Of a stretch of DNA of 64,000 nt, positions 3,120 through 64,000 are shown piece after piece (position 1 is the stretch's first letter; every line of letters starts with the position of its first letter). The notes under the pieces were generated by a model. The model had not been told where the DNA came from. It ran no database searches and saw only the letters and a list, made by a program, of their open reading frames with translations. This DNA is from Acrocarpospora macrocephala (GTDB lineage Bacteria > Actinomycetota > Actinomycetes > Streptosporangiales > Streptosporangiaceae): assembly GCF_009687865.1 (NCBI RefSeq), contig NZ_BLAE01000008.1:80956-144955 (forward strand), given 5' to 3'. The position numbers and the translations under genes are program-made.

Positions 3120-3121
3120 CT

Positions 3122-3135
3122 GTTTCACGTGAAAC
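3122..3135. promoter_or_regulatory. parS: parS centromere site 5
   Basis: Perfect GTTTCACGTGAAAC palindrome between the parB stop codon and the parB terminator. Confidence 0.95.
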
Positions 3136-3163
3136 CATGATGGTTTCCTGGTGAGTTCGTGGG

Positions 3164-50033: not shown

Positions 50034-50095
50034 GTCGTTTCCGTTTCTGTGCGTCTATCCGTACGTCGAAACAAAGGAGGACGTTCTCGACAAGG

Positions 50096-50638
50096 TCAGG
50101 CGGGCTGGTAGGTGAGGATCGTCATGCCCGACGCGAACGTCTCAGTGTTTGCCAGCGTGAACGCGGCCTTCGTGCCCTCGCGGAAGAGCCGCTGCCCCGC
50201 GCCGACCGCGACCGGGTGCACCCACAACCGGTACTCGTCGAGCAGGCCGCTCTCCCGCAGCGCGTCGGTCAACTGCCCACAACCGTAGATGAGGATGTCC
50301 CCGCCGGGCTGTTCCTTCAGCCGGGTGACCTCGGCGATCAGGTCGTCGCCCGGGATGATCGTCGTGTTGTTCCAGTCGGCCTTGTCCAGAGTGGAGGTGA
50401 CCACGTACTTGTCCATCGCGTTGATCCGGTCGGCGAAGTCGTCCGCGCCGGCCCGGCCCGGCCAGGCCGCCGCGAAGCCCTCGTAGGTGACCCGGCCCAT
50501 CAGCAGGATGTCGCTGGCGAACAGCAGGGCGTGGGCGTACTGGGCGGCTTCGTCGCTCCAGTAGTCGAACGACCACAGGTGCGGGTTGTCGATGAAGCCG
50601 TCGAGCGTGACGTACGTGGAAGTGATGATCTTGCGCAT
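50096..50638 (-). CDS. dihydrofolate reductase-family (RibD C-terminal-like) protein
   Basis: 180 aa from ATG 50638 with AGGAG 6 bp upstream. Family pattern: RKIITSTYVTLDGFIDNPHLW, LLMGRVTYEGFAAAWP, KYVVTSTLDKADWNN, DILIYGCGQLTDAL, LWVHPVAVGAGQRLF. These proteins use NADPH but true folate activity is usually absent; the substrate is unknown. It is 8 bp downstream of the FMN reductase gene, forming an operon. Confidence 0.9.
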   Translation of the reverse strand: MRKIITSTYVTLDGFIDNPHLWSFDYWSDEAAQYAHALLFASDILLMGRVTYEGFAAAWPGRAGADDFADRINAMDKYVVTSTLDKADWNNTTIIPGDDLIAEVTRLKEQPGGDILIYGCGQLTDALRESGLLDEYRLWVHPVAVGAGQRLFREGTKAAFTLANTETFASGMTILTYQPA

Positions 50639-50646
50639 GATTTCTC

Positions 50647-51219
50647 CTATGGGAGGTAAGGGCGCTTGGCGCGGGCATCCCGCAGCGCGTGGGCCCACCA
50701 GGACAATTGATCCAAAGTGGTCTTCAGCTCTGAGTTGCAGGCCGCCGTCGGCTTGGGCCAGCTGCCGTCGGCCGCGAACAGCTGCCAGTAGGAGGGCAGC
50801 GACACCCCGTCCCTGATGGGCACCGCGTGCAGTTCGGTGAAGACCTGCCGCAGTTGCTCGGTGGCGTGCCGTCCGCCGGACTCCCGGCCGTACGAGATGA
50901 AGGCGACCGGTTTGGCGTGCCACTCCGTGTAGAACCAGTCGATCGCCGTTTTGAGCGGAGCCGGGAAGCTTCGGTTATATTCCGGGGTCACCACCACGAA
51001 GGCGTCGGCGGCGGCCAGGCGTGGGGCGAGCTGCCGTACCGGGAGGGGAAGCGGGTCGTCCTGGTCGCACAGCGTGGCCGGCAGGCCGGTCTCGGCCAGG
51101 TCGATCACGTCCAGCTCCAGCTCGGCCCGGCGCCGGGCCCGGGACACCAGCCAATCGGCCACGGTGGGCCCGAAACGCCCGGTTCGGGTGCTGCCGATGA
51201 TGACCGCGAATCTCAGCAT
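50647..51219 (-). CDS. NAD(P)H-dependent FMN reductase
   Basis: 190-aa flavodoxin-like protein. Phosphate-binding loop IIGSTRTGRFGPTVADWL, substrate-side segment VVVTPEYNRSFPAPLKTAIDWFYTEWHAKPVAFISYGRESGG. Matches the ChrR/azoreductase-like NADPH-dependent FMN reductase family. It lies divergent to the SARP regulator gene (109 bp between starts), which may regulate it. Confidence 0.92.
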   Translation of the reverse strand: MLRFAVIIGSTRTGRFGPTVADWLVSRARRRAELELDVIDLAETGLPATLCDQDDPLPLPVRQLAPRLAAADAFVVVTPEYNRSFPAPLKTAIDWFYTEWHAKPVAFISYGRESGGRHATEQLRQVFTELHAVPIRDGVSLPSYWQLFAADGSWPKPTAACNSELKTTLDQLSWWAHALRDARAKRPYLP

Positions 51220-51327
51220 GTCCGCCTCCTTTCTGACACCTCCAAAGCTGCCAGGAGCGGCTTACGGTCTCCTTCCCGTCCTCTTACGACCAGGCGTGCG
51301 GCGGCGTAAGCGGCTAGCGTGGCGTTT

Positions 51328-54300
51328 ATGCGCTTTGGGGTGCTGGGGCCACTCACGGTGTGGACGGCGGACGGGCGCGCGGTCACCATCCCCGGTCTGA
51401 AGGTCCGCGCTCTCCTCGCCGACCTGCTCATTCACGAAGGCCGGACGGTGTCGGTGGACCGGCTGGTCGATGACCTCTGGGGGGAGGACGCCCCGGCGAA
51501 CCCGTCCGGCGCGCTTCAGGTCAAGGTCTCCCAGCTCCGCCGCGCCCTGGACGAAGCCGAACCGGGCGCCCGCGATCTGGTCGTATCCCTCCCGCCCGGC
51601 TATGCCCTCCGTACCAGCCCGGAAGCGGTCGACTCCGCACACTTCACGCACCTGACCACACAAGCCCAGGACAGCGCCGACCCGCGCACGGTCGCCGCCC
51701 TGCTCGGCGACGCGCTGGCCCTCTGGCGTGGTACGGCATTCGCCGACTTTTCCGACGACGACTTCACCCAGCCCACGATCGCCCGCCTCGACGAGCAGCG
51801 CCTGGCCGCGCTCGAGCATTGGGCCGAAGCCCGCCTGGAGCTGGGCGAACACAGCCTGCTGGCGGGCGAACTGGCCGATCTGACCGCCCGGCACCCGCTC
51901 AGGGAACGCCTGCGCGCCGCCCACATCCGGGCCCTCTACCTGGCCGGACGCCAGAGCGAGGCGCTCGCCGCCTACGCCGACCTGCGCGAGCGGCTGGCCG
52001 AGGACCTCGGCCTGGACCCCAGCCCCGACCTGGTCGCACTGCACCAGGCGGTCTTGAACCAGGCGCTGAGCACGACCGCGGTTATCCGCACGAACCTGCC
52101 CGAACCCCTGGGCGACCTGATCGGCCGGGAGGACGCGGTCACCGAGGTCCGTACCCTGCTGGAAAAGAACAGGCTGGTCACCCTTACCGGATCCGGAGGA
52201 GTCGGGAAAACCCGGTTGGCCCTGGAGACCGCCCGCGGGTTGATCTTCCCTGACGGCGTTTGGCTGGTCGAATTGGCCGCGATCGACGGGTCCGGCCTGG
52301 CCGAGGCGATCATGGCCGCGCTTGAGGTCCAGGACCTCGGCGACAACCGGCTGATTGACGCGATGCGCTCCCGGAACCTGCTGCTCGTGCTCGACAACTG
52401 CGAACACGTCATCGACGACGTCGCCAAACTGGCCGATGCCCTGCTCCGGGCCGCGCCGAACCTGCGCATCCTGGCCACCAGCCAGGAAGCCCTCGCACTC
52501 CCGGGCGAAACCGTGTGGAGCGTGCCCCCTCTGGACGTTCCCTCCCCAACCGCCGACCTCGCGACGCTCGACCAGTCCAGCGCGGTACGGCTGTTCGTGA
52601 CCCGGGCCACGGCCGCCGCCCGAGATTTCACCCTTGACACCGACACCGCCCCCGCGGTCGCGACACTGTGCCGCCGGCTGGACGGCATCCCGCTGGCCCT
52701 GGAACTGGCCGCCACCCGGGTCCGTGCGCTCGGCGTGCACGGCCTGGTCGCCCGCCTCGACGACCGGTTCCGCCTGCTGGCCACCGGCCATCGCGGCGCC
52801 CCGCCCCGCCAGCAGACCCTCACCGCGATGATCGACTGGAGCTGGGAGCTCCTGACCGACCCCGAGCGGATCGTCCTGCGGCGGCTCGCCATCCACGCCG
52901 ACGGCTGCACCCTCGAAGCCGCCGAAGCCGTCTGCGGCACACCGGACGTCCTCGACCTGCTGGCCCGCCTGGTCGACCGCTCCCTGGTCACCGTCAGCCA
53001 TGGCCCCGAAGGCCCGCGCTACCGCCTGCTCGAATCCGTCGCCGCGTACTGCGTGGACAGAATGCGCGAAGCCGACGAATACCACGAACTCCAGGACCGC
53101 CACCGCGCCTACTACACCGACCTCGCAGAACAGGCCCAGCCCCACCTTTACGGCCCCGCCCAGCGCACCTGGCTCCGCCGCCTCGACGCCGAAGCCGCCA
53201 ACTTCCGCACCGCCGTCAACCTCCGCCTGGTCAACGCCCTGACCTGGTACTGGTTCCTCCGCGGCCGCCTCACCGAAGCCCGCCGCGCCCTCGAAACCGC
53301 CCTCTCCCAGCCCGGTAAGGCACCCGCCGCCGACCGCGCCACCGCCCTCGCCTGGCAGGCCGGAATCGCCCTCCTCCATGGCGACACCGCCGACAAAACC
53401 GCCCGCCGTGAGGCCGCCCTCGCGCTCTTCACCGACGACCCGGCCAGAAAGGCCAGGGCGCAGTGGTTCCTCGCCTACACCGCCTCCGACACCGGCGTGG
53501 CCGCCTGTGCCACGTTGCTCGACGAGGCATTGGCGACGTTCCGGCAACTCGGCGACCGCTGGGGGGAAGCGGCCGCGTTGAGCACCCAGGCCAAACTCGC
53601 CCACGTACGAGGCGATCTGAGCGCACTCGGCACCGCGGCCGAGCGGAGCAACGTGATCTTCACCGAGCTGGGGGAGCGCTGGGGCCAGTTGGAGGCCACC
53701 GGCTGGCTCGGTGCCCGGGCCGAGCTGACCGGCGACTACGACGAGGCCGAACGCTGGCAGCGGGATGGCTTGGCGATCGCCGAGGAGTTCGGCCTGTGGA
53801 CGGAGGTATCCACGCGGCTGTCCTGGCTGGGCTGGATCGCCCTACAACGCGGCGATTATGCGCAATCGCGGCTCTTCTCCGAACACGGGCTCCGGCTGGC
53901 CGTCGAGCAGGCCCACCTGCCCGCGCTGGTCTTCGCCGAGATGACCCTCGGTTTCGCCGCCCGCAAGGACGGCCTCACCGAGCTCGCCGAAACCCACCTG
54001 CGCAACGTGCTGGAGCGTACGCACCCGATCGACGAGGCCAGCCCGCCGCCGCACCTGCCGATGGTCCTGGCCGAGCTCGGCTTCGCCGCCGAGCAGCGCG
54101 GCGCCGTGACCGAGGCGGTCGAGCTGCACCGCCGGGCGTTCACCACGGCGCTGGCCTTCAACTCGCCTCGGGGACACGCCTTCGTCGCCGAGGGCCTGGC
54201 GGGCGCGCTCGCGCTGGCCGGTGATCACTGCCAGGCGGCGCGGCTGCTTGGCGCGGCAGCGCGGGTCCGTACCACGAAGGAACTGCCGCTGGCCCCCGCC

Positions 54301-54417
54301 GAGGCGCGCGATGTCGACCGGATCACCGCCGCCACCCGCGCCGCGCTGGGCGAGGCGGCCTTCGAGGCCGAATTCAGCCGGGGCGCCGACCAGCCCCTGG
54401 ATCGGCAATTCGATTGA
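51328..54417 (+). CDS. AfsR/SARP-family regulator with ATPase and TPR domains
   Basis: 1029 aa. OmpR-like winged helix (about 1-90: LGPLTVWTADGRAVTIPGLKVRALLADLLI), bacterial transcriptional activator domain BTAD (about 95-245), NB-ARC-type ATPase (Walker A LTGSGGVGKTRLAL near 287; Walker B LLLVLDNCEHVIDD) and a C-terminal TPR region. A GTG 9 bp earlier in frame is an alternative start. Members act as pathway-level regulators of secondary metabolism or stress; no biosynthetic cluster is in the window. The divergent FMN reductase-DHFR-like operon is the nearest candidate target. Confidence 0.93.
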   Translation: MRFGVLGPLTVWTADGRAVTIPGLKVRALLADLLIHEGRTVSVDRLVDDLWGEDAPANPSGALQVKVSQLRRALDEAEPGARDLVVSLPPGYALRTSPEAVDSAHFTHLTTQAQDSADPRTVAALLGDALALWRGTAFADFSDDDFTQPTIARLDEQRLAALEHWAEARLELGEHSLLAGELADLTARHPLRERLRAAHIRALYLAGRQSEALAAYADLRERLAEDLGLDPSPDLVALHQAVLNQALSTTAVIRTNLPEPLGDLIGREDAVTEVRTLLEKNRLVTLTGSGGVGKTRLALETARGLIFPDGVWLVELAAIDGSGLAEAIMAALEVQDLGDNRLIDAMRSRNLLLVLDNCEHVIDDVAKLADALLRAAPNLRILATSQEALALPGETVWSVPPLDVPSPTADLATLDQSSAVRLFVTRATAAARDFTLDTDTAPAVATLCRRLDGIPLALELAATRVRALGVHGLVARLDDRFRLLATGHRGAPPRQQTLTAMIDWSWELLTDPERIVLRRLAIHADGCTLEAAEAVCGTPDVLDLLARLVDRSLVTVSHGPEGPRYRLLESVAAYCVDRMREADEYHELQDRHRAYYTDLAEQAQPHLYGPAQRTWLRRLDAEAANFRTAVNLRLVNALTWYWFLRGRLTEARRALETALSQPGKAPAADRATALAWQAGIALLHGDTADKTARREAALALFTDDPARKARAQWFLAYTASDTGVAACATLLDEALATFRQLGDRWGEAAALSTQAKLAHVRGDLSALGTAAERSNVIFTELGERWGQLEATGWLGARAELTGDYDEAERWQRDGLAIAEEFGLWTEVSTRLSWLGWIALQRGDYAQSRLFSEHGLRLAVEQAHLPALVFAEMTLGFAARKDGLTELAETHLRNVLERTHPIDEASPPPHLPMVLAELGFAAEQRGAVTEAVELHRRAFTTALAFNSPRGHAFVAEGLAGALALAGDHCQAARLLGAAARVRTTKELPLAPAEARDVDRITAATRAALGEAAFEAEFSRGADQPLDRQFD

Positions 54418-54462
54418 ACCCGCCCGCCGGGCGTCGCGTACCTCCCCGCGAGGAGGCTGATG

Positions 54463-54963
54463 ATGCGTTGGATTCTGGCGTTTGCCACGTTCCTGATCCT
54501 CGGGTGTTCGGCCACGGCTGACGCCCAGGACCCGGACGTGCGCTTCTCGCTGGAGATGATCACCCATAACCGGCAGACCCTCAGACTCGCCGATATGGTC
54601 AAAGGCCGCAGCACCGATTCCTTTGTCACCGGCCTGGCCGCGAAGCTCAAAGTCGACGAGCGTACCGAGATCGACGTCATGTCCACCTGGCTCCAGATGT
54701 GGAACATGCCACCACCCAAAGGCACGACCTACCAGATGCCGGGCAGCGTGACCACCGCCGACTACACCGCGCTCCAGAGCCGATCAGGCCCGGAGTTCGA
54801 CAAAATGTGGCTCACCACGCTCAGCAGACACCTCACCACCGGCGTCATGATCGCCCAGGTCGCGGTCGCCACCGGCGATCACCCGCCCACCGGCGACCTG
54901 GCCCGGCGCATCGTTCGGGAGCAACGCGAGAACATCGCGGAGATCGGCCAGCACATCAGTTGA
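54463..54963 (+). CDS. DUF305-family lipoprotein
   Basis: 166 aa. Lipobox signal peptide (MRWILAFATFLILGCSA) and two DUF305 halves: MITHNRQTLRLADMV, and TLSRHLTTGVMIAQVAV. The usual M-x-x-H-H motif has lost one His. Family members are often found with copper resistance and are surface-exposed. AGGAGG lies 6 bp before ATG 54463 (ATG 54460 is too close). No copper genes are nearby. Confidence 0.85.
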   Translation: MRWILAFATFLILGCSATADAQDPDVRFSLEMITHNRQTLRLADMVKGRSTDSFVTGLAAKLKVDERTEIDVMSTWLQMWNMPPPKGTTYQMPGSVTTADYTALQSRSGPEFDKMWLTTLSRHLTTGVMIAQVAVATGDHPPTGDLARRIVREQRENIAEIGQHIS

Positions 54964-54975
54964 TGCTCCACACGT

Positions 54976-55419
54976 GTGCCCGCCCCCGATTCGGGGGTAG
55001 TGGCAGTAGAGCGTGGAAAGGCGGCGAGCAAGGTGGCGGGCATCCTGCTGAGTCTGGAGTTCGAGCATGGCGCGATCACCCAGATCCGCCATCTCGTCCA
55101 GCGCTCCGCCGCCACGGCCGGCCTCACCGGCGCCGCCCTCGACGATTACGTGCTGGCCGTGCACGAGGCCGTCACCAACGCCGTCAAGTACGGCAACAGG
55201 CCACGCAGCATCTCCATCTGGGAAGAATCCGGCGCATTCTTCAGCGAAGTCCGCGACAGCGGGCCCGGCATTCCGTACCAGACCCTGACATCTAACGACC
55301 TGGCCGAACGCTCCCCGTTCGGCGGCCGGGGCCTCTGGCTGATGCGCCACCTCACCCGCACCACCATCCAGACCGGCCCCGACGGCACCACGATCCGACT
55401 CGCCGCCTCCCTGCCCTGA
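54976..55419 (+). CDS. ATP-binding (RsbW-like) anti-sigma/regulatory protein
   Basis: 147-aa GHKL kinase-like domain: LAVHEAVTNAVKYGN (N box), EVRDSGPGIPYQ (G1), GGRGLWLMRHLTRTT (G2) and IRLAASLP. Proteins of this class bind sigma factors or anti-anti-sigma partners, and the streptomycete genome usually has many. No partner sigma or STAS gene is adjacent. GTG 54976 or GTG 55000 may start it; it begins 12 bp after the lipoprotein gene. Confidence 0.87.
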   Translation: MPAPDSGVVAVERGKAASKVAGILLSLEFEHGAITQIRHLVQRSAATAGLTGAALDDYVLAVHEAVTNAVKYGNRPRSISIWEESGAFFSEVRDSGPGIPYQTLTSNDLAERSPFGGRGLWLMRHLTRTTIQTGPDGTTIRLAASLP

Positions 55420-55676
55420 GGTTCGCTCAAAGCTGAGCCGGTGCGGTACGGCATACGCCCGAAACCTGTCCGAGATAGGACCTGTTCGATAGATTCCTAC
55501 CGAAAAGAACAAGGCTAGCGAGCCCCATCCAAGGTTCACTATCACCAGATTCGGTACAACCAGTTATCGGGCAACCCCAGGGCCACACCGATCCCTTGCT
55601 AGGCTGGCGGGAACCTAGTTGGAACCGGGCGTTGTCTCACCCGGCTGGTGAGACCGTTGGGAAGTGGGGTCACACC
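55420..55676. other. intergenic, no gene recognised
   Basis: About 255 bp of lower GC with no open frame of protein-like character and no clear promoter. It marks the return from accessory genes to the DLW-39 gene. Confidence 0.4.
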
Positions 55677-55796
55677 ATGAAGAAGCTGCTCGTTCTGGCG
55701 CTTGTCGCTATTGGGGGGCTGCTGGTCTGGCGTAAGGTGCAGTCCGACCGCGCCGAGCTGGACCTGTGGACTGAGGCGACCGGCAGCGAGAACTGA
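55677..55796 (+). CDS. DLW-39 family small membrane protein
   Basis: 39 aa, MKKLLVLALVAIGGLLVWRK then VQSDRAELDLWTEATGSEN. One N-terminal helix and the D-L-W signature match the DLW-39 family exactly, including the length of about 39. The family is conserved in actinobacteria, usually close to the gyrA/tRNA-Ile/tRNA-Ala region. Function unknown. Here it is 34 kb from tRNA-Ile. Confidence 0.9.
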   Translation: MKKLLVLALVAIGGLLVWRKVQSDRAELDLWTEATGSEN

Positions 55797-55842
55797 CGAC
55801 CACCCGGAGATGGGTTTGCTTGATCGTGGCGAAGGTGCGGGT

Positions 55843-56562
55843 ATGACCCCCGTCAGGCTGGCCTGCCTGGACCTGGCGGGCACCACGATCGGCGACGTCG
55901 CCATGGTCGACCGAGCTTTCGCCGAGGCGATCGCCACCCAGGCGATCGCCACCCAGGGGATCGTTCCCGGGACCAGTGCGTACGCGCGGGCCATGGTCCA
56001 CGTTCACCGGTCCCGGGGGTGCCCCAAGATCGACGTCTTTCGTGGCATATTTCCGGACAACGAAGCGCGGGCTCAGGCGGCTAATCTGACGTTTGAGCGC
56101 TCGTATGAGGGTGCCATCGAACGTACCGGTCTTATCCCGCTTCCTGGCACTGTCGAAGCCCTGGAGAAGCTCCGGGCCGCCGATATCCAGGTGGCCCTCA
56201 TCACCGGCTTCAGCCGGGGCACCCTGGGGCGCGTTCTGGGCGCCCTCGGTTGGCACGACAAGCTCAACCTGGCCATATGTCCCGAAGATGCGGGACGTGG
56301 TCGGCCGTACCCGGATATGGTGCTCACCGCCGTACTCAAACTCGGCATCGACGACGTCCGCCAGGTGGCCGTCGCCGGCGACTCGGAGAATGACATGATC
56401 AGCGGCCGCCGCGCCGGCGCCGGCCTGGTCGCGGGCGTCCTCACCGGCGTCCACAGCCGCGAACGCCTCCTAGGCGGCGGCGCCACCCACATCATCGACT
56501 CCATCGCCGACTTCCCCGCCCTACTCCTCGGCCACCATCAGGCGATCCCCGCAATCCGCTAG
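55843..56562 (+). CDS. HAD-superfamily hydrolase (phosphonatase-like)
   Basis: 239 aa. Motif I CLDLAGTT has Asp-x-Ala-Gly-Thr-Thr as in the phosphonatase branch, motif II ALITGFSRG, and motif IV VAVAGDSENDMISG. ATG 55843 (GGTGCGGGT upstream) is preferred; the frame is open earlier. A 15-bp in-frame duplication at 55927-55956 repeats A-I-A-T-Q in the cap domain. The substrate cannot be told; the usual phosphonate genes are absent. Confidence 0.87.
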   Translation: MTPVRLACLDLAGTTIGDVAMVDRAFAEAIATQAIATQGIVPGTSAYARAMVHVHRSRGCPKIDVFRGIFPDNEARAQAANLTFERSYEGAIERTGLIPLPGTVEALEKLRAADIQVALITGFSRGTLGRVLGALGWHDKLNLAICPEDAGRGRPYPDMVLTAVLKLGIDDVRQVAVAGDSENDMISGRRAGAGLVAGVLTGVHSRERLLGGGATHIIDSIADFPALLLGHHQAIPAIR

Positions 56563-56717
56563 CCGCGGGGTCGTTCTCGGCCAGCAGGCCAAGACCCGGT
56601 TGTGCGATTCGCCCTCGACCAGCAGGTCATTCGCGTGATCGGCTAAGGCCTGGCGCGCGGCTAGCCCTCGACCTGCCAATACTCGGCTACGCAGATCCGG
56701 TGTCACTCCCCGAGGGA

Positions 56718-57131
56718 CTACTGGCTATACGACCACCCTCGCCAGCGCTCCACAACGATCGCGACAACAGGACCTTCGGGACGATGATCCCGATACTGCC
56801 CATAACGCGCCACCAACCGCGCAATCCACTCCCCCCGGGTCACCTCGTCCTCAACGATCGACGCACGCCCATCCGCTCGCACCCACCACAGCCGCGTCCA
56901 GTCATCCTCATAGTGATCGACCAGCAGACAGACCCGCTCATTACTCACAATGTTCCGCAACCGACGAAGATCCATCGTCCGCTTCGGCTTGTGATCGACC
57001 GCGAACGCGATCACATCCCCCTCAACCGCGAACACGATGGGCACAAGATGAGGACTCCCCGTAACATCCACAGTGGCCAACTTCGCCGACCGCGCCGCCA
57101 CAAACCTCTCCCGAGCCACACGTTCATCCAC
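56718..57131 (-). CDS. PPOX-class F420-dependent oxidoreductase (TIGR03668 type)
   Basis: 137 aa from GTG 57131. Split-barrel flavin fold: VARERFVAARSAKLATVDVTGSPHLVPIVFAVEGD, then HKPKRTMDLRRLRNIVSNERVCLLVDHYEDDWTRLWWVRADGRA. It matches the F420-binding subfamily and the usual length. The open frame continues 51 codons upstream without a family match. Cofactor F420 use fits an actinobacterium. It converges on the HAD gene. Confidence 0.87.
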   Translation of the reverse strand: MDERVARERFVAARSAKLATVDVTGSPHLVPIVFAVEGDVIAFAVDHKPKRTMDLRRLRNIVSNERVCLLVDHYEDDWTRLWWVRADGRASIVEDEVTRGEWIARLVARYGQYRDHRPEGPVVAIVVERWRGWSYSQ

Positions 57132-57424
57132 AGAGCTAGACCTACCCTCCCCCAGCCGGACGCCGCCCTTCACCAACTCAACCAAGCTCGACCGACGCCC
57201 TAGCTGCCTCGACGACCCGGAACACCAACTCCGACCAACATCAGAGTTCGTCGTCGCCCAGAACTCAGATTGATGGGCGATCATCCGTTTGATGGGTCCC
57301 GGACCGTCTCCTGGTGGTGGCGTCGCGATACCGAGTGGCGCGATGACCTACGCTGTTGCTACGGTGTACGAGCCGGACAGAGCCGCGGCCAGCTCTAAAC
57401 ATGCAGGTCAGCGACTAGATTCAC

Positions 57425-57497
57425 GGGGCCTTAGCTCAGCTGGCAGAGCGCCTGCTTTGCAAGCAGGATGTCAGCGGTTCGAATCCGCTAGGCTCCA
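57425..57497 (+). tRNA. alaT: tRNA-Ala (TGC)
   Basis: 73 nt. Acceptor GGGGCCT pairs with AGGCTCC (one wobble), anticodon TGC at 57458-57460, T-arm GGTTCGAATCC. Discriminator A, with CCA encoded at 57498-57500. Its 3' half abuts an integrase, marking it as an integration site. Confidence 0.97.
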
Positions 57498-57500
57498 CCA
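57460..57500. other. probable attachment site of the integrated element
   Basis: The tRNA-Ala 3' portion, up to and including CCA, lies 57 bp from the 3' end of the tyrosine integrase gene. pSAM2-type elements recombine in the 3' end of a tRNA gene and restore it, so one att copy should be here and a direct repeat of part of this sequence should lie beyond 64000. The core boundaries cannot be set from one end. Confidence 0.6.
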
Positions 57501-57506
57501 GCCAAA

Positions 57507-57538
57507 ACGCCCCGCTCTCGATCACGAGAACGGGGCGT
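57507..57538. terminator. hairpin between tRNA-Ala and the integrase gene
   Basis: Inverted repeat ACGCCCCG-C-TCTCG / CGAGA-A-CGGGGCGT: 13 bp with one mismatch and a 4-nt loop. It probably serves as a terminator for the tRNA on the plus strand and the integrase operon on the minus strand. Confidence 0.65.
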
Positions 57539-57556
57539 GGGTGTCTAACTGGGTGA

Positions 57557-58738
57557 CTAAGCCTCCCGTTCGTCTCCGAAGAGGTCATCCATGGCCATGG
57601 CTCCCTCCTGCATCACCGGGCGGATCTGGAGACGGTAGACGGTTTCGGTGACCACGGTGTTGGCGTGGCCCACCAGGCGAGAGATGTGTTCGATCGGGAC
57701 GCCCGAGGCTGAGAGCAGCGACACGAAGCTGTGGCGCATTTCCCTGGGTGTCCAGTCCTTGTCGATCAGACCGGCATCCTTGAGGACCCTCCGGAAGTCG
57801 CGCCGGACGTTGCCAGCGCTCAATGCCGTTCCGTTCTTCGTGCAGAACACCAATCTGCTTCCGACGTCAGCGGGCTTTTGCCCGTCGTCTTCCCAGAGCT
57901 GTTGGAGTGCTTCGACGCACTTTTGAGGCAGCTTGAGGGTTCGCCGAGACTTGACGGTCTTCGTGTCGCCGCTGCGCCGTACCGACCGCCAGACGTAGAT
58001 GGCGTATTCGGTGTGATCCCAGCCCGCTTCCTCGACGGAAACCCACTCCTTGCGCGTGTCATCGAACGCCACCAGGTGCGACCAGTTCAGCTCTCGGAGT
58101 TCCTCAGTGCGCGCTCCCGTTAGCAGCGACAGAACGACGTAGCAGCGCATACGCACGTTCGCCCGATCAGCAGCGGCCATAACAGCCACGGCCTGGGCCA
58201 ACGTGAGTGCCTTCGATTTGCGACCCGCACGACCTTCCGGGACCTCGCAAAGATCCACGACGTTCCTCTTGACCTTGTCGCGAATCATGGCGTTCTTCAC
58301 CGAACGGTTGAGAATGCCGTGGATCATCTTGAGAGTGCGCGTGCTGAGCCCTTGGGCTTTGCCCGCCAGCCACCGGTCAACATCTTCCACTGAGAGGTCA
58401 CGGAGCTTGCGCGCACCGAGCGCAGAGATGACGTGATTCTCGGCGAACTCGGTATAAAGGGCGACCGTGTTGCTTCCCCGCCCCTTCAGGCCATGCTGAA
58501 GCCAATACCTGACGGCATCAGCCACGGTGTAGCCGCTCGACTCGACAGCCAAGCCGTCTTCGTAGTCACGAATGATCTTTTTGAGCTTGGTATTGGCCTC
58601 GGTCTTGGTCTCCCCGCTGGCCTTCTTAACGATCCGCTTTCCGGCTGGGGTGTAGCCAACAGTGACCGAGGCGATCCACCGCTGACGCTTTTCGTCCCAG
58701 TGCAGGCCGCCGTCTCCCCTGCTACGTCGCTTGGTCAT
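57557..58738 (-). CDS. int: site-specific tyrosine integrase
   Basis: 393 aa. An N-terminal SAM-like arm-binding region (about 60-160, ESSGYTVADAVRYWLQHGL) is followed by a catalytic domain with Arg in LLTGARTEELRELNW (near 210), Arg-His in PREMRHSFVSLLSASGV, His in LVGHAN and the nucleophile Tyr in TVVTETVYRLQ. Catalyses integration and excision at the adjacent tRNA-Ala. The start overlaps the xis stop by 1 bp; the pair is coupled. Confidence 0.95.
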   Translation of the reverse strand: MTKRRSRGDGGLHWDEKRQRWIASVTVGYTPAGKRIVKKASGETKTEANTKLKKIIRDYEDGLAVESSGYTVADAVRYWLQHGLKGRGSNTVALYTEFAENHVISALGARKLRDLSVEDVDRWLAGKAQGLSTRTLKMIHGILNRSVKNAMIRDKVKRNVVDLCEVPEGRAGRKSKALTLAQAVAVMAAADRANVRMRCYVVLSLLTGARTEELRELNWSHLVAFDDTRKEWVSVEEAGWDHTEYAIYVWRSVRRSGDTKTVKSRRTLKLPQKCVEALQQLWEDDGQKPADVGSRLVFCTKNGTALSAGNVRRDFRRVLKDAGLIDKDWTPREMRHSFVSLLSASGVPIEHISRLVGHANTVVTETVYRLQIRPVMQEGAMAMDDLFGDEREA

Positions 58739-58929
58739 CAGGCAGTCCTTCCTTCTTGTTCGAGCAGCGCGACGTAGTCAGCGATCGCCGACGCGGGGAT
58801 GAGACGTACGCGACCTTCCTTGACGGAGCGAAGCCGCTTCCCGCGGATCAGCTCGTATACCTTGCTCCGCCCCAAGCCGAGGACCTGAGTGGCTTCGGCG
58901 ACGCGGTACATCTGGCGATTCATGAGCAT
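58738..58929 (-). CDS. xis: excisionase (helix-turn-helix)
   Basis: 63 aa. MerR-like winged helix: MYRVAEATQVLGLGRSKVYELIRGKRLRSVKEGRVRLIP, the typical AICE Xis that bends DNA and favours excision. Its start overlaps the rep stop by 1 bp, so rep, xis and int form one transcription unit. Confidence 0.92.
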   Translation of the reverse strand: MLMNRQMYRVAEATQVLGLGRSKVYELIRGKRLRSVKEGRVRLIPASAIADYVALLEQEGRTA

Positions 58930-60386
58930 CAGGCCTCCTCATTGGTGATCTCGTATCGGTCTGAGCCATCAGGCGAGACCGACGCGAGAGACGGGCATTC
59001 AGGGGACGGATCGTGGGACAGGCCACTGGAGAGGCCGGAAGCCAAGGCGAATTCGCCCGGCGTGTAGCCCTGGCCCGCGAACTTCCAGTGCGCGAGAACG
59101 AGCGTGGTGCCAGGGTCGAAAGCTCGCTCATGGTCGGCCCGCTGGGTAAGGCGGTAGTCGACACGGGCTTGGCGCAGGGCGCCCAGGGTTGTGGAGTAAG
59201 CGCGAGATCGGGTCGAGAAGTGGCCTCGGAAGCCGAGCATGTGAGCCCAGTCGCGGAGCCGGAGGTGGGCGAGGTCAGGTCGGGCGAGGGCGTTGCCGAG
59301 CCGCCAAGCTGTGCGGATAAGCCGGATGGTGTGGTCGGGGATGCCCATCGTGTGGAGTCGGGGTATCTCGTGTATCTTGATGGCCCGGTCGAGGGTGCCC
59401 GATGTTTCAGCCGATTTTGTGGCGTATTTGGCCACGTATCCGGCCACGGCTCGTTCGCTGAGCGCGGTTCCTTGGCCAAGTGCGCCGGGGCTGATCGTGG
59501 CGACGTCGACTTGCTGGCCCCAGGTGAGTGGCCCGTACTCGGGCACATCGACCCGCACGGCCGCGACCGCTGACCTGATGGCACCGCTCAGCAACTCGAC
59601 CGTGGCCCAAGCGGGCGGAGAGACGAGCATGCCGCCGCAGGACCGGCCGTCGAGGCGGATCACAGCGTGGAAGTGGACGACTCCGCGTGTCTGGTATTCG
59701 GCGACCTTGGCGAAGGAGAGCCGTACGAGGTTGTTGAAGGCTTTGCGGGTGAGCCCTGCGGCGGCGGCCATGTGCCGCCGGAGGTAGATGGTGAAGCGTC
59801 GCCATAGGTCGCCTGCGTGGGCGTTCCACAGGACGTGCCCGGCGTAGTCGTACGTCTCTTGGTCCAGGGGTTGGCCGATGCGCTGGTCGCCGGTCTTGTG
59901 CCAGGTGAAGCAGGCCGGGCCGGTCCGGCGGGGATGGCAGACGATGGTCTTGCCGTCCTTGCCGGGGCCACGGTGGACCGGCCCGAAGGAGGGCGCGGTG
60001 AGGGTGGCCAGGACGCGCGGGTGCGCCCGCACGCTTTCCGGCACGCCCTTGTCTCCGCCGAGGAGTCCGGAGCGGATCAGGTGGAAGGTGTCGCGCCGGT
60101 AGGTCTCGGCGCAGGCCGGGCAGCGGGAGGCGCGGCGGTTGCCGCAGCGGATGAGAAGTTGCCCGTGCGGTTCGGCCTTGGTGCTGTACCGCGTGAGCAC
60201 CTCGCCGGTGTTGCCGTCGATGGTCGTTCTATGGCCGGTGAGCCGGAGGGGCTCGCGGCAGCCGCCCAGCCGGTGGACCTGGTCGAGCCAGCGGGTCAGA
60301 TCGCGGCCGGAACGCCGGGCCAGGTCGCGGATGACCGGGCCGACGAGGTCGCCGACCGGGACGGGAAAGTCGGTGGCGTGGGTCAT
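58929..60386 (-). CDS. replication initiator protein (RepSA-like)
   Basis: 485 aa from ATG 60386. Rolling-circle-type initiator of AICEs: zinc finger CGNRRASRCPACAETYRRDTFHLIRSGL, then GVVHFHAVIRLDG (HUH-like His motif HFH), LSERAVAGYVAKYATKSAE (Tyr/Lys motif), and a C-terminal RAWRLG/HMLGFRGHFST region. The start overlaps the 45-aa gene stop (ATGA). Needed for post-excision replication and transfer. The frame is open further upstream but overlaps the small gene. Confidence 0.92.
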   Translation of the reverse strand: MTHATDFPVPVGDLVGPVIRDLARRSGRDLTRWLDQVHRLGGCREPLRLTGHRTTIDGNTGEVLTRYSTKAEPHGQLLIRCGNRRASRCPACAETYRRDTFHLIRSGLLGGDKGVPESVRAHPRVLATLTAPSFGPVHRGPGKDGKTIVCHPRRTGPACFTWHKTGDQRIGQPLDQETYDYAGHVLWNAHAGDLWRRFTIYLRRHMAAAAGLTRKAFNNLVRLSFAKVAEYQTRGVVHFHAVIRLDGRSCGGMLVSPPAWATVELLSGAIRSAVAAVRVDVPEYGPLTWGQQVDVATISPGALGQGTALSERAVAGYVAKYATKSAETSGTLDRAIKIHEIPRLHTMGIPDHTIRLIRTAWRLGNALARPDLAHLRLRDWAHMLGFRGHFSTRSRAYSTTLGALRQARVDYRLTQRADHERAFDPGTTLVLAHWKFAGQGYTPGEFALASGLSSGLSHDPSPECPSLASVSPDGSDRYEITNEEA

Positions 60387-60520
60387 CGGGCCACCGTTCC
60401 CGTGCCGACGCAGACCGGGCACTGGACGCAGACGAGGGCGCGGGAATCGGTGTCGCGGATGACGACGGCGGCGAAGCCGTCGCATTCCGGGCAGAGGCGA
60501 AGCAGAACAGGCGTAGCCAT
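60383..60520 (-). CDS. small zinc-ribbon protein, 45 aa
   Basis: MATPVLLRLCPECDGFAAVV ... VCVQCPVCVGTGTVAR, with C-x-x-C and C-x-x-C-x-x-C patterns that suggest a zinc site. GGAG lies 8 bp before ATG 60520, and the stop overlaps the rep start. It is too short for usual gene calls. It may tune Rep or act as an accessory in replication. Confidence 0.7.
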   Translation of the reverse strand: MATPVLLRLCPECDGFAAVVIRDTDSRALVCVQCPVCVGTGTVAR

Positions 60521-60557
60521 AGTGATTCTCCAGGTGAGCGATATGGGATACAGCCGG

Positions 60558-60594
60558 GCGAGGCGGGGAGCTGGCAGGCGTGAGACCGCCTCGC
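60558..60594. promoter_or_regulatory. hairpin A with shared loop sequence
   Basis: Perfect 9-bp stem GCGAGGCGG/CCGCCTCGC with a 19-nt loop that starts GGAGCTGGCAGGCGT. The same 15-nt segment opens the loop of hairpin B (63024-63070), whose stem sequence is unrelated. It lies between the 36-aa and 45-aa genes, upstream of rep. Confidence 0.75.
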
Positions 60595-60604
60595 ACGGGT
60601 TGAG

Positions 60605-60715
60605 TTAGAAGGTGTGGCCGGTGCCGTCACAGTCAGGGCAGGTGACGGCGTCGCCCTGGTCGTCGTTGATCAGGCCGGTTCCGCCGCAGGTGCAGCACCG
60701 GTAGCGGATGATCAC
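60605..60715 (-). CDS. DnaJ-type zinc-finger microprotein, 36 aa
   Basis: VIIRYRCCTCGGTGLINDDQ then GDAVTCPDCDGTGHTF. Two C-x-x-C-x-G-x-G repeats, as in the DnaJ zinc finger, form almost the whole protein. The start is GTG 60715, and the GGAGG upstream of it lies partly in the preceding gene. It follows the 57-aa gene by 8 bp. Confidence 0.68.
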   Translation of the reverse strand: MIIRYRCCTCGGTGLINDDQGDAVTCPDCDGTGHTF

Positions 60716-60723
60716 AGGAGGGT

Positions 60724-60897
60724 TCACCTCCCCTCCGGGGTGTGGCCGGTGCCGTCGCAGTCGAAGCAAAACGCCCACGTGTCCAGGCGGGTGGCGTTCT
60801 TGCCGCGACCGACGATCAGGAAAGCTTCGGTCTGGCCCTCACCGGCGCAGGTCGGGCAGACCGGTGGTGAGGGCGGGAGCTTCTTGGTTCGGGCCAT
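60724..60897 (-). CDS. DnaJ-type zinc-finger microprotein, 57 aa
   Basis: MARTKKLPPSPPVCPTCAGE, then GQTEAFLIVGRGKNATRLDT and WAFCFDCDGTGHTPEGR. C-x-x-C-x-G-x-G pairs lie at both ends. AAGGAG 9 bp before ATG 60897 is strong. It shares the CDCDGTGHT-like ending with the 36-aa protein, so the two are probably paralogues. Confidence 0.75.
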   Translation of the reverse strand: MARTKKLPPSPPVCPTCAGEGQTEAFLIVGRGKNATRLDTWAFCFDCDGTGHTPEGR

Positions 60898-60912
60898 GAG
60901 GCTTCTCCTTGA

Positions 60913-61524
60913 TCAGGCTTGGAGTTGAGTGAGGAGGTCGGCGGCGAGATCGGGCGTGACGCGCAGACGCTTGCTCAGTGCTTCGCGGGTGATCGGCTTG
61001 CCGTGCGTGGCCGCGTGCTCGTTGGCCACGTGCCGGGCGAACGCGATGAGCGGGTCATCGCTCCTAGGAGTCGGGTGGTTGGCGGGCTCGGCCGGAGCTG
61101 GTTCCGCGGCTGGTTCCTCAGGCGTGCGTACGGGAGCGTGGCCGTGGCCGGCGCGGCGTTCCAGCATCGACACCGCGACGAGGAACGCTACGGCCGGGGT
61201 CGCGGCGGTGATCCATCCCCAGGGGGAGGGTTCGGCCTGGGCGAGGTTGGCGGCCAAGGTCAAGACGATCCCGCCCGCCAGGACCAGACCGGGCCAGGAG
61301 ACCAGGCCACGCCGGGGACGGCCGGTCCTCTTGTCGCGTTGGAGTTCGCGGGCGGCCATCACGCACATCAGGTCGATGCACACCGCGACGGCCCAGGCTT
61401 GCCAGCCGTCCTGGCCGTGGTCGGCGGCGAGTGAGCTGATGTGGGTGAAGGAGCCGACGGCGGCGATCAGGGCCAGGACGAGCACGGGGCCGGAGTCCAG
61501 CGGCCGGAGGCGTTGGCGGCGCAT
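60913..61524 (-). CDS. DUF2637 membrane protein (SpdB-like)
   Basis: 203 aa. DUF2637 core with four membrane helices (about 12-30, 42-58, 76-96, 106-122), for example VLVLALIAAVGSFTHISSLA and WAVAVCIDLMCVMAARELQRDK. A Pro/Ala-rich linker and a C-terminal helical domain follow (LIAFARHVANEHAATHGKPITREALSKRL), resembling a helix-turn-helix. DUF2637 proteins accompany AICE spread genes and probably aid intramycelial transfer. Confidence 0.85.
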   Translation of the reverse strand: MRRQRLRPLDSGPVLVLALIAAVGSFTHISSLAADHGQDGWQAWAVAVCIDLMCVMAARELQRDKRTGRPRRGLVSWPGLVLAGGIVLTLAANLAQAEPSPWGWITAATPAVAFLVAVSMLERRAGHGHAPVRTPEEPAAEPAPAEPANHPTPRSDDPLIAFARHVANEHAATHGKPITREALSKRLRVTPDLAADLLTQLQA

Positions 61525-61609
61525 CAGGTTCCCCCTGTGAGGGTCGATGGACGTGACGGGGTAGGGACGTGGCGTGATGTGGGCTCACGCCAGCCCGGGG
61601 ACCGGGTGG

Positions 61610-62992
61610 TCAGGACACGTCGGGCTCGAACTGCTCGAACTCGGTGTCGGTGACCGGCTCCACGCTGACGGTCGTGATCTGCGCCCAGGTCGGCCGCAGG
61701 TGCGCGTTCGCGGTCGCGGCGGCCTCGGCCTGCTTCTCCGGGACGTACGCCGAGCGCGCCCGATACCAGCGCCCGTCGGAGGCGGCGAAGATGGCGGCGC
61801 CGGGCATGTCGGCGGGGATCAGCCGGGCCGCCTGGAGGGCGGCGGGGTCCATGTCGCCCAGGGTCATGTTCGCGGTCTCGGGATCGTTGACGCGGTGGCA
61901 GATCCGGCCCGACAGCTGGGCGCGCAGGGCGGTGACGCCGGGACCGAGGTCAGAGCCCACCCGCTGCCCGCACACCAGCAGATACAGCCCGAACGCCCGC
62001 CCGAGCTGGGCGAGCCGGATCAGCTGCACGGCTGTCGCGGAGATCTCCTCCTTCTCGGACTTGTCGGCCATCAGGAACAGCTCGGCCACCTCGTCGACCA
62101 GCAGCACGACCGGCATCGGCCGGGCGTTGTCCGGAAGCTTCCAGATGTCGCGGACGTGGTGGGCCCGGCACAACGCCATCCGGAGTTTGATCTCGGTGAT
62201 CAGCTTGTTCAGCACGGCCACGCAGTGGCCGCGTTCGGTGGCCAGCTCAGTCAGCCGCGCCGCATACGGCGTCAGTTCGACGCCGCCCTTCAGGTCGAAC
62301 CCGATCAACGCCACCGGCTGTGCTGCCAGGCCGGTGATGAGCGCGTTGAGCAGGGTGGACTTGCCGGACTGGGTCGCGCCGGTGATGAGCCAGTGCGGGA
62401 TGGTGGTGAAGTCGATGACCCAGGGCGCGGCCGTCTCCAACTGGCCCACCTGGACCCGGAGCAGGCCGTCATCCTTGACGGGTGTGGTGATGCGGTTGAG
62501 CGGATCACGCACGGTGGCCTGCAACCTGAGGCGGCCGGGCTTCCAGTCCAGGACGCGCACGGAGTGGACCCGCCAGGCGTGGGAGAGATTGACCAGCTTG
62601 GCGGCGTAGTGGTCGGGGGTCTGGCCGTCGTCGAGCCGTACCGCCATCCGGAAGCCTGTCGCCAGCGGGCGGATCAGGCCGAGCCGGGGTGGTGTGTCCA
62701 CGGTGACGCGGCGCAGCTTGCGCGTGGGCGGGATGACATGCGTGGTGGTGATCAGCGCCGGGCCGAGAACGGGAACCCCGTCCAGGGTGAGCCGCCAGCG
62801 GCGCCGCTTGCGGGCCAGGCCGCAGCCCGCCGACACATTGGTCCAGGTGAGGTAGACCGCCAGGGCCTTGTACGGGAAGCCGACCGTCAGCCAGAACGAG
62901 ACCGGGTGAAGCCGGTTCCATACGGCCAGGGTGGCGGCGAATGCGGTGAGAATGCCCAGGTAAGGGGCGAGGGTAAGAAGCAGGTGAGTCAT
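61610..62992 (-). CDS. traSA: FtsK/SpoIIIE-type DNA transfer protein (TraSA-like)
   Basis: 460 aa. Two N-terminal membrane helices (about 4-20, 32-50), then the motor domain with Walker A ITGATQSGKSTLLNAL (near 203) and Walker B VVLLVDEVAELFLMADK (near 293). A conserved arginine-rich end and a C-terminal DNA-binding tail follow. It moves double-stranded element DNA between hyphae. It is the only conjugation pump gene and is complete. Confidence 0.93.
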   Translation of the reverse strand: MTHLLLTLAPYLGILTAFAATLAVWNRLHPVSFWLTVGFPYKALAVYLTWTNVSAGCGLARKRRRWRLTLDGVPVLGPALITTTHVIPPTRKLRRVTVDTPPRLGLIRPLATGFRMAVRLDDGQTPDHYAAKLVNLSHAWRVHSVRVLDWKPGRLRLQATVRDPLNRITTPVKDDGLLRVQVGQLETAAPWVIDFTTIPHWLITGATQSGKSTLLNALITGLAAQPVALIGFDLKGGVELTPYAARLTELATERGHCVAVLNKLITEIKLRMALCRAHHVRDIWKLPDNARPMPVVLLVDEVAELFLMADKSEKEEISATAVQLIRLAQLGRAFGLYLLVCGQRVGSDLGPGVTALRAQLSGRICHRVNDPETANMTLGDMDPAALQAARLIPADMPGAAIFAASDGRWYRARSAYVPEKQAEAAATANAHLRPTWAQITTVSVEPVTDTEFEQFEPDVS

Positions 62993-63023
62993 ACTGGTGT
63001 CTCTCTTCGTGAGCGAAGGGAAG

Positions 63024-63070
63024 GCCCCGGAAGCGGCGGAGCTGGCAGGCGTTGAGGCCGCTCCCGGGGC
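63024..63070. promoter_or_regulatory. hairpin B with shared loop sequence
   Basis: A bipartite stem (GCCCCGG/CCGGGGC and AGCGGC/GCCGCT, 13 bp with one internal mismatch) closes a 19-nt loop starting GGAGCTGGCAGGCGT, the same 15-mer as hairpin A. It lies in the gap between the SCO3933-type gene and tra. Confidence 0.75.
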
Positions 63071-63087
63071 GCTAACGTGCGGGTGGA

Positions 63088-63420
63088 TCAGGCGGCGGCG
63101 CGCGTCTGCGCCGGAACGATCGCCTCGGCGCGAAAGCCGAGCCCCGCGCGGCCGTTCATCTGCCAGAAGAACGCCGCCAGTCCAACGGGCCGGACCTGAA
63201 CGCCTTCCGGGATGGACGGGAAGTTCTCGGACGGGAAGGTCACCACGATCACCGGGTTGCGGCGGTCGTCGTTTGGCTTGGGAAGCAGCGGGATCGTGTA
63301 CAGGTCCCGCCCTTCGGCGTCCTTCTTGACCTCGCCGGTGGCGCGGTCAACGATCTTCGGCTCGGGCTCACCGGCGACGATGAAGGCCAGGGCGGACAGA
63401 TCAACAGGAATGTTGCGCAT
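63088..63420 (-). CDS. SCO3933-family regulatory protein
   Basis: 110 aa from ATG 63420 with AAGGAG 8 bp upstream; longer frames upstream are spurious. RNIPVDLSALAFIVAGEPEPKIVDRATGEV and FPSIPEGVQVRPVGLAAFFWQ match the small AICE-linked family. It is first in the minus-strand operon leading to tra and rep, divergent from the GntR gene, and so a likely target of that regulator. Confidence 0.87.
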   Translation of the reverse strand: MRNIPVDLSALAFIVAGEPEPKIVDRATGEVKKDAEGRDLYTIPLLPKPNDDRRNPVIVVTFPSENFPSIPEGVQVRPVGLAAFFWQMNGRAGLGFRAEAIVPAQTRAAA

Positions 63421-63445
63421 GGTCGAACTCCTTGAGTTGGCTATG

Positions 63446-63495
63446 TTGCCTAGACAACTTCTGATGAGTTGATGTTGCCTGGGTTGGCTAGCCAA
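63446..63495. promoter_or_regulatory. paired operator-like palindromes in the divergent promoter region
   Basis: TTGCCTAGACAA at 63446-63457 and TTGGCTAGCCAA at 63484-63495 (perfect palindrome) share TTGnCTAGnCAA with centres 38 bp apart. Half-sites (TTGGCTA at 63437, CTAGCCTAG near 63515) flank them. The site between the SCO3933-type and GntR genes is where a KorSA-like repressor would act. Confidence 0.7.
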
Positions 63496-63551
63496 GTCAA
63501 GAACATCGGAACAACTAGCCTAGCCAGCCTAGGTGCCCTAACCTGATTCGT

Positions 63552-64000
63552 ATGAGTCTCGACCCAGATGACCCCCGCCCGCCGTACCAGCAGGTGGCCA
63601 ACGCCCTCCGCGCGGCGATCCTCACCAAGAAGTTCGAACCCGGCCAGAAACTCCCGTCCGGCGTCGAACTGGCCAAGACCTACGGCGTCGCCCGAATGAC
63701 CGTTCAGCAAGCGATTCGCATATTGCGAGATGAAGGCCTGATCGTGTCCCGCCAGGGGAGCGGCGTCTACGTCCGGGAACGCACCGAACGCCCGGTCGAG
63801 CTACGCCCGCACATCGAGCATGCCTTCGAGAAGCCGAACGTCGGCATCGACTTCGCAGGCTTCTCCGGCGAAACCCTGAACGGCATGCTGCAAGAGCCGC
63901 TGGACAAGATCCGCATCGGACGGCTCACGCCCGAATCGATCACCATCCGCATCCTGGTCCCCGACATGACCCAGTCCCTCGCGCTTCCCGTCAGCGCCGA
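63552..64000 (+). CDS. GntR-family regulator, partial (runs off the window)
   Basis: The first 149 codons are present. The GntR winged helix is PYQQVANALRAAILTKKFEPGQKLPSGVELAKTYGVARMTVQQAIRILRDEGLIVSRQGSGVYV. The effector domain begins ERPVELRPHIEHAFEKPNVGIDFAGFSGETL. In pSAM2 the equivalent (KorSA) represses pra and the transfer genes. It is divergent from the minus-strand AICE operon. Confidence 0.9.
   Translation, partial: MSLDPDDPRPPYQQVANALRAAILTKKFEPGQKLPSGVELAKTYGVARMTVQQAIRILRDEGLIVSRQGSGVYVRERTERPVELRPHIEHAFEKPNVGIDFAGFSGETLNGMLQEPLDKIRIGRLTPESITIRILVPDMTQSLALPVSA

Follow-up and report, generated by a model that had tools for sequence, protein, structure and literature searches.

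A candidate RNA leader family with lineage-specific hairpin loops before replication and transfer genes of actinomycete integrative and conjugative elements

Two hairpins with one loop in the Acrocarpospora macrocephala element

The DNA analysed here (the window, 64,000 nucleotides of Acrocarpospora macrocephala contig NZ_BLAE01000008.1, positions 80,956 to 144,955 of the forward strand) carries an actinomycete integrative and conjugative element (AICE). The element genes lie on the minus strand and comprise int, xis, a RepSA-type rep, several small open reading frames (ORFs), a gene for a DUF2637 protein, an FtsK-type tra and a 110-aa ORF of the Pra family (Table 1). Two hairpins, A and B, stand upstream of the rep and tra gene groups, respectively. 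A sequence-only reading of the window had proposed that they are structured targets coordinating replication and transfer, and this proposal is supported, as far as sequence comparison can support it, by the covariation of their stems and by their placement before tra and rep.

Table 1. Hairpins and neighbouring features of the A. macrocephala element (window coordinates)
Feature	Position	Strand	Remarks
rep, RepSA-type rolling-circle initiator	58929..60386	-	Pfam PF20199, E 6e-155
45-aa ORF, two CxxCxG motifs	60383..60520	-	downstream of hairpin A
GCTCACC	60533..60539	-	between hairpin A and Shine-Dalgarno sequence
Hairpin A	60558..60594	-	9-bp stem, 19-nt loop TCTCACGCCTGCCAGCTCC; putative leader of the 45-aa Zn-ribbon ORF preceding rep
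57-aa ORF, two CxxCxG motifs	60605..60778	-	ends just before hairpin A
57-aa ORF, two CxxCxG motifs, basic N-terminus	60724..60897	-	tblastn
tra, FtsK/SpoIIIE-type translocase	61610..62992	-	Pfam PF01580; downstream of hairpin B
GCTCAC	63009..63014	-	between hairpin B and tra start
Hairpin B	63024..63070	-	14-bp stem including one G·U, 19-nt loop CTCAACGCCTGCCAGCTCC; putative leader of tra
Pra/SCO3933-family protein, 110 aa, candidate loop-binding factor	63088..63420	-	NCBIfam NF051478, E 9e-33
GntR-family regulator, divergent, KorSA-like position	63552..64000 (continues past window end)	+	Pfam PF00392

Hairpin A was found as first described, with a perfect 9-bp stem closing a 19-nt loop. For hairpin B, the 13-bp bipartite stem of the earlier description holds on the plus strand (7 + 6 bp around an A·C), whereas on the minus strand it runs unbroken for 14 bp, because the plus-strand A·C reads as G·U there. 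The minus strand is also the gene strand, and both loops carry GCCUGCCAGC on it, reading (A)CGCCTGCCAGCTCC. The shared 15-nt loop start occurs exactly twice in the window, while the other 11 of the 13 window matches to this 15-mer need two or three changes (chance mean 5.2). When gene-strand hairpins with stems of at least 7 bp and loops of 12-25 nt were compared, the A/B pair had the longest exact loop sharing (15 nt) among the pairs listed, the next having 13 nt; a comparison of hairpin pairs sharing 9-mers was too permissive and was left unused. Against shuffled sequences, the folding z-scores were -3.15 (A) and -4.01 (B) on the gene strand and -4.14 (A) and -2.01 (B) on the plus strand. 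Since the values for hairpin A are comparable, folding energy alone gives no choice of strand for it. The hairpins had no match in Rfam 15, and tRNA was the sole family above its gathering score in window 50000-64000 and in the related stretches L294, L300, L302, L308, L033 and L108. The literature searches brought up no paper whose title or abstract describes these hairpins.

A covarying hairpin family in two loop types

Further copies were recovered by several routes. Among 27 loci of Tra relatives, both hairpins are present in A. pleiomorpha (L031) and A. catenulata (L032), and a model of hairpin B led to a third element, in genome G001, with another stem. A loop model with N-masked stems (R2) was then run over 250 genomes of the family. 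At E 0.5 it matches nearly every genome, mostly by chance; among the matches listed were paired matches on single contigs, and elements were confirmed by inspection in G036, G110 (two), G172, G121, G199 and G016. From the 20 R2 regions fetched, 12 loci (L105-L107, L112-L120) were judged false because the match was mutated or the fold left the core outside a comparable loop closed by a stem. A refined covariance model (R3) found matches in 10 of 341 family genomes, belonging to six of 68 genera, and added G659. Over the genomes of the class it matched only two of 394, with strict filters that may miss weak matches.

In total, 28 hairpins of this kind, here called type I, were counted in 12 elements, with two to four copies in the same orientation in each; L111, which repeats the element of L110, was excluded. 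Their stems are of 17 different kinds when the inner 7 bp are compared and of 15 kinds for the inner 6 bp (an alternative figure of 22 results when stems of different length are counted separately). In many elements, the tra copies have a GCCCCGGGAG-type stem in common by descent, while the copies near rep differ. In a type I alignment (A7; 23 sequences, 19 distinct), all nine stem pairs had changes on both sides and 93.6% of the cells were paired, against 61.2% in shuffles; the covariation score was 0.780, compared with 0.212 in shuffled and at most 0.252 in slid alignments. The expectation that the stem is free while pairing and loop are kept was therefore borne out, with 17 inner stems, a constant loop core and compensatory changes at nine of nine pairs.

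Type I host elements form a single clade. The hairpin-bearing rows make up one side of a branch in both the Tra tree (10 of 35 rows, support 99/98) and the Rep tree (11 of 32 rows, 100/100), L103 being in neither tree and L109 being absent from the Tra tree on account of a short match. The phylogenies place a single origin of the type I elements on this branch.

In 25 loci of sister elements, R3 gave no matches. These elements carry a different start-associated hairpin (type II), with loop CCGCCAAG and core CC[AG][CG]CAAG, which lies before rep in all 21 sister loci with rep in reach; the remaining four of the 25 had no rep in the fetched stretch. A further 20 regions were selected for a match to the Pra family. 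In 14 of them, the type II core lies in a hairpin that precedes rep, pra, a Zn-ribbon ORF or some other ORF. Fifteen of these 20 regions are from one genus, taken as Streptomyces, and 12 of the 15 were positive; L312 of A. macrocephala, described below, is another of the positive regions. In the Streptomyces formicae plasmid NZ_CP071873.1 (L314), hairpins before pra and before a Zn-ribbon gene (CPACDGF...CRTCHGTG) share the ACCGCCAAG core on unrelated stems, and in Nonomuraea gerenzanensis NZ_LT559118.1 a type II hairpin stands before a rep-like start. One or two copies were found in each type II element. The type II alignment has 22 rows, 21 of them distinct, which were hand-picked for variety (five of the 21 sister loci) and include three rows out of register; L295 and L296 were excluded as identical to L293 and L294. 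Seven of its nine pairs had changes on both sides, and its covariation score of 0.378, against 0.139 when shuffled, was reached in none of 500 shuffles. A type II score of 9 is reached by 1.9% of random positions.

The two window hairpins, as judged from these alignments, are members of a larger family whose loops are specific to the lineage. That they are a chance duplication or a non-functional repeat would agree with the finding of only two copies within the window, and is refuted by the covariation of both types, the R3 matches in 10 of 341 genomes, the 28 hairpins and the 21 of 21 sister loci. The check proposed with the sequence-only reading, a covariance model, had called for more copies with covarying stems, and these were found before tra, rep or the small ORFs preceding rep; neither an absence of further copies nor copies that fail to pair, which that reading had named as refuting it, was encountered.

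The search was also extended to phages, plasmids and viral contigs, where blastn with hairpin B gave weak partial matches only. The core-plus-GCTCACC pattern occurred in at least 120 viral stretches, and R3 on 80 of them gave one match, of E 0.49, which was read as chance.

Several observations concern individual elements. The A. macrocephala genome has a second AICE (L312, G000:C6:221300-230300), whose Pra is 31% identical to that of the window and which has a type II loop before rep, so that one cell holds two loop codes. Two related elements in G110:C7 (L102 and L103) are separated by about 13.7 kb; both hairpins are present in each, with little difference between their loops. The 27.8-kb L314 record repeats an element of about 10.4 kb almost three times with identical protein accessions, which may be a tandem array or an assembly effect.

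Leader architecture and RNA or DNA action

The type I hairpins stand in a unit of constant order, namely the stop codon of the preceding gene, the hairpin, a C-rich stretch with CTCA[CT], a Shine-Dalgarno sequence and a start codon. The CTCA[CT] motif lies within 45 nt past the stem in 26 of the 28 hairpins, and for 23 of the 26 copies measured the distance from loop core to start codon is 51-85 nt. This distance is 163 nt for one copy in L108, the outer member of a tandem pair. For L101 and L104 the script, which required a close Shine-Dalgarno sequence, called no start; a rep ATG is visible after both. Downstream of the hairpins stand tra, rep or the genes of tiny tandem-CxxCxG proteins located ahead of rep. 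A single copy precedes tra in each element (L108 has two in tandem there), with one or two more before rep or its small ORFs; in L140 the three copies precede tra, a Zn-ribbon ORF and rep, respectively. Thus, the placement upstream of replication and transfer gene groups, first noted for the window, recurs across type I elements. The comparisons establish a hairpin site between a stop codon and the next ribosome-binding site, with a free stem and a loop core that is constant within a lineage, and this covarying, start-associated family of AICE hairpins is new.

Both types have a covarying helix with a conserved unpaired core, as in cis-regulatory RNA leaders, and it is probable that they are a family of cis-acting RNA leaders. 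The hairpin would then work in the mRNA. In phage coat-protein operators and ribosomal-protein leaders, a protein reads a hairpin loop and controls the following gene. The AICE hairpins differ in that several copies precede different genes of one element and that their partner is a candidate.

A close likeness in another mobile-element group is that of the Start-Associated Sequences and their extended form (SAS/ESAS) of cluster K mycobacteriophages (PMC3203893). In the passages concerned, these too are short, recur within one element group and are placed just ahead of start codons; an inverted repeat lies upstream of them, and their function is given as unknown. The SAS, however, lie 3-7 bp from the start, against 51-85 nt for most AICE loop cores. 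Moreover, the inverted-repeat sequence of SAS/ESAS is conserved and its spacer variable, whereas the AICE hairpins have a conserved loop on a free stem with covarying pairing. The AICE hairpins therefore share the location near starts and do not share a conserved inverted repeat with a variable spacer; in the same passages, the SAS/ESAS authors saw little support for an RNA hairpin.

Other modes of RNA action were considered and rejected. The stems are not intrinsic terminators, because no T-run follows them in the downstream sequences inspected. Pairing of the loop with the Shine-Dalgarno sequence is possible for copies with GGAG and impossible for tra copies with GAAGAGAGA/GAAGAGAGG. Loop-loop kissing through CUGCCAG, which is nearly self-complementary, conflicts with a C·C mismatch retained in 27 of 28 hairpins. 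The tra copy of L070 has diverged (GCCTGGCAGC), and only this copy (CTGGCAG) would pair perfectly with the other copy of that element. The suggestion that the loops are targets of an antisense RNA was not upheld, since the loop 14-mer (at most one mismatch) had 36 matches in its own genome compared with 50 for the reversed control.

The main rival, which we hold to be unlikely though by no means negligible, is a single-stranded DNA element of rolling-circle replication, that is, a double-strand origin (dso) nicked by Rep or a single-strand origin (sso), formed on strand displacement. Rolling-circle origins typically have hairpins with conserved loops, and the AICE hairpins resemble them in having a conserved loop near rep. 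The type II hairpin adjoins rep and its complement reads CTTGG, reminiscent of the pC194-type nick; the candidate protein partner Pra is predicted to be SSB-like, as described below. RepSA elements do replicate by rolling circle, and RepSA nicks the dso, according to passages of PMC3218068. On the other side, the type I loop is without CTTG, and the copies are tied to start codons, including those of tra and Zn-ribbon genes. A rolling-circle replicon normally has one functional double-strand origin, whereas each of the 12 type I elements has its two to four copies in one orientation, and a nick origin so repeated would be expected to delete the intervening DNA. An equal candidate origin is also available in a different element located just past tra. 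In the window (61559-61591, minus strand), it consists of an inverted repeat (GGCGTGA...TCACGCC) followed by GTCCCTACCC, often with CCATGCC(C/T)GAAA; 32 of 57 loci have a single copy of its core, GTCC[CT]TACCC, the other 25 have none, and no locus has two. It may be an origin or clt, or another leader.

RNA action is favoured over DNA action because of the tie to start codons and because several copies in the same orientation are awkward for a nick origin. Wobble pairs gave a further hint, and a hint only. On the gene strand, G·U exceeded A·C by 10 to 4 when full type I stems were counted once each, by 4 to 2 in the type I inner 7 bp and by 3 to 0 in type II. A survey of both types over the inner 8 bp counted 10 G·U and 5 A·C, spurious rows included (two spurious coding matches among 30 type I rows; L298 excluded), with loop ends chosen to maximise pairing, so that its comparison with shuffles is flattering.

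Alternatively, the hairpin could be RNA without a dedicated partner, such as a site of mRNA processing or stabilisation or an attenuator, read by a host RNase or RNA polymerase. Its intercistronic position from stop to start and its stable stems would suit this explanation. As it leaves the fixed 10-nt loop core and the restriction to these elements (two of 394 class genomes) unexplained, and as there is no T-run past the stems, we consider it improbable.

Pra and other candidate readers of the loop

Taken as a whole, the evidence leads us to favour, by a modest measure, a family of AICE leaders that act in cis as RNA and whose loop is read by a factor encoded by the element, most likely Pra. 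The 110-aa protein matches NF051478 with 112.6 bits, above the curated cut-off of 80, and pra ends 17 nt before hairpin B. Passages of PMC8584621 and PMC3218068 report that Pra of pSAM2, described in 1995 (reference in PMC3218068), activates repSA-xis-int and that pra is repressed by KorSA; no target site is named in them. The window element has the same gene set and the same regulator family beside a GntR regulator. The cited passages describe transcription activation and make no mention of an RNA target, and pSAM2 was compared by description only.

Pra was the most conserved of four proteins (with tra, DUF2637 and rep) in eight of ten hairpin-bearing relatives, with an identity to the window of 83-97% compared with 64-97% for tra; in L141 the two were level (97.3 and 97.2), and DUF2637 was not found in the comparison of L109 and L102. 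Because fourfold-degenerate sites of pra were only 43-70% identical in these eight, conservation of the protein points to selection rather than recent exchange. In the other two relatives, L108 and L140, Pra was the least conserved of the four (36%) and the loops were looser (GCAC, GCAT, GCTT). The Pra proteins of sister elements are 31-44% identical to that of the window. The AlphaFold2 model of the protein is all-beta (pLDDT 86), and SSB made up most of the top 40 Foldseek rows, the best E value, 0.0096, being a moderate match; the structure match to 3eiv had Z 8.7 over 95 residues with rmsd 3.7. Pra is thus predicted to have an SSB-like OB fold, which would be suited to gripping a single-stranded loop.

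In the mechanism that we propose, a GntR/KorSA-type repressor would control pra, and Pra acting on nascent leaders would release expression of tra and rep, through either antitermination or freed translation. Reading of the loop by an element-encoded factor would in this way couple the expression of replication and transfer genes. A type II hairpin lies directly before pra in L300 (position 511), L308 (position 471) and L314 (positions 4673, 15057 and 25441), which suggests autoregulation.

A number of findings weigh against the favoured reading. The wobble excess is small; the core genes are all on one strand, so that orientation cannot separate RNA from DNA action; and, when measured against shuffles, hairpin A folds no worse on the other strand. 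Both L070 hairpins are without the CTCA motif downstream. Among the 20 regions with a Pra match, L301, L303, L310 and L311 have no type II hairpin, L299 has one weak match (score 8) and L306 covers 3 kb only, and pNL15-2K-Cir has Pra, tra and rep and no such hairpin. Two widely differing Pra types, with 83-97% and 36% identity to that of the window, accompany type I loops. The Pra tree needs two changes for the loop type and does not unite these types, and the structural matches of Pra to SSB are moderate (best E 0.0096, best Z 8.7). Because the Pra tree splits the two Pra types that have the type I loop, Pra itself is proposed as the ligand of the loop only tentatively.

The same RNA element could instead be read by the tiny tandem-CxxCxG Zn-ribbon proteins, which would regulate themselves. 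Between one and four ORFs of this kind are found on the element strand of most type I stretches, and a hairpin often precedes one; the ORFs have weak matches to anti-TRAP and DnaJ Zn domains. These matches are below the family cut-offs, though, and the metal-binding pattern is very common; the hairpin stands directly before rep in L101, L102 and L104, and sister stretches mostly have one Zn-ribbon ORF and some have none. We regard this reader as quite improbable.

A wider and more doubtful version of the Pra proposal, which we rate as a minority possibility, is that AICE replication and transfer genes form an RNA-level regulon, in which Pra would be a sequence-specific loop reader rather than a classical DNA-binding activator, acting on the leaders of tra, rep, Zn-ribbon genes and in some cases pra, with a loop code (GCCUGCCAGC or CCGCCAAG) that depends on the lineage. 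If so, conjugation would be linked to replication, in a large class of actinomycete elements, by a regulon of RNA leaders whose loop code varies with the lineage, and co-resident elements, for instance the two of the A. macrocephala genome, could be insulated or cross-activated according to their loop codes. It would also mean that an SSB-type fold has been turned into a specific single-strand regulator. The proposal gives Pra a predicted target site, down to its nucleotides.

As for the Zn-ribbon ORFs themselves, groups of 33-57-aa tandem-CxxCxG ORFs occur in the window (60383-60897) and in L108, L110 and L140, and a single fetched stretch may have as many as four of them on the element strand. 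The CPxCDGF type recurs after a hairpin in Acrocarpospora and in Streptomyces-type elements, and the 57-aa ORF with the basic N-terminus was found by tblastn in eight of 13 hairpin-bearing loci and in none of 25 sister loci. Elsewhere in the window, five parS-like sites (TGTTTCACGTGAAACA, at most one mismatch; 963-978, 1039-1054, 1118-1133, 3121-3136 and 5266-5281), of which shuffled sequences had none, suggest that the chromosomal origin is close to the window.

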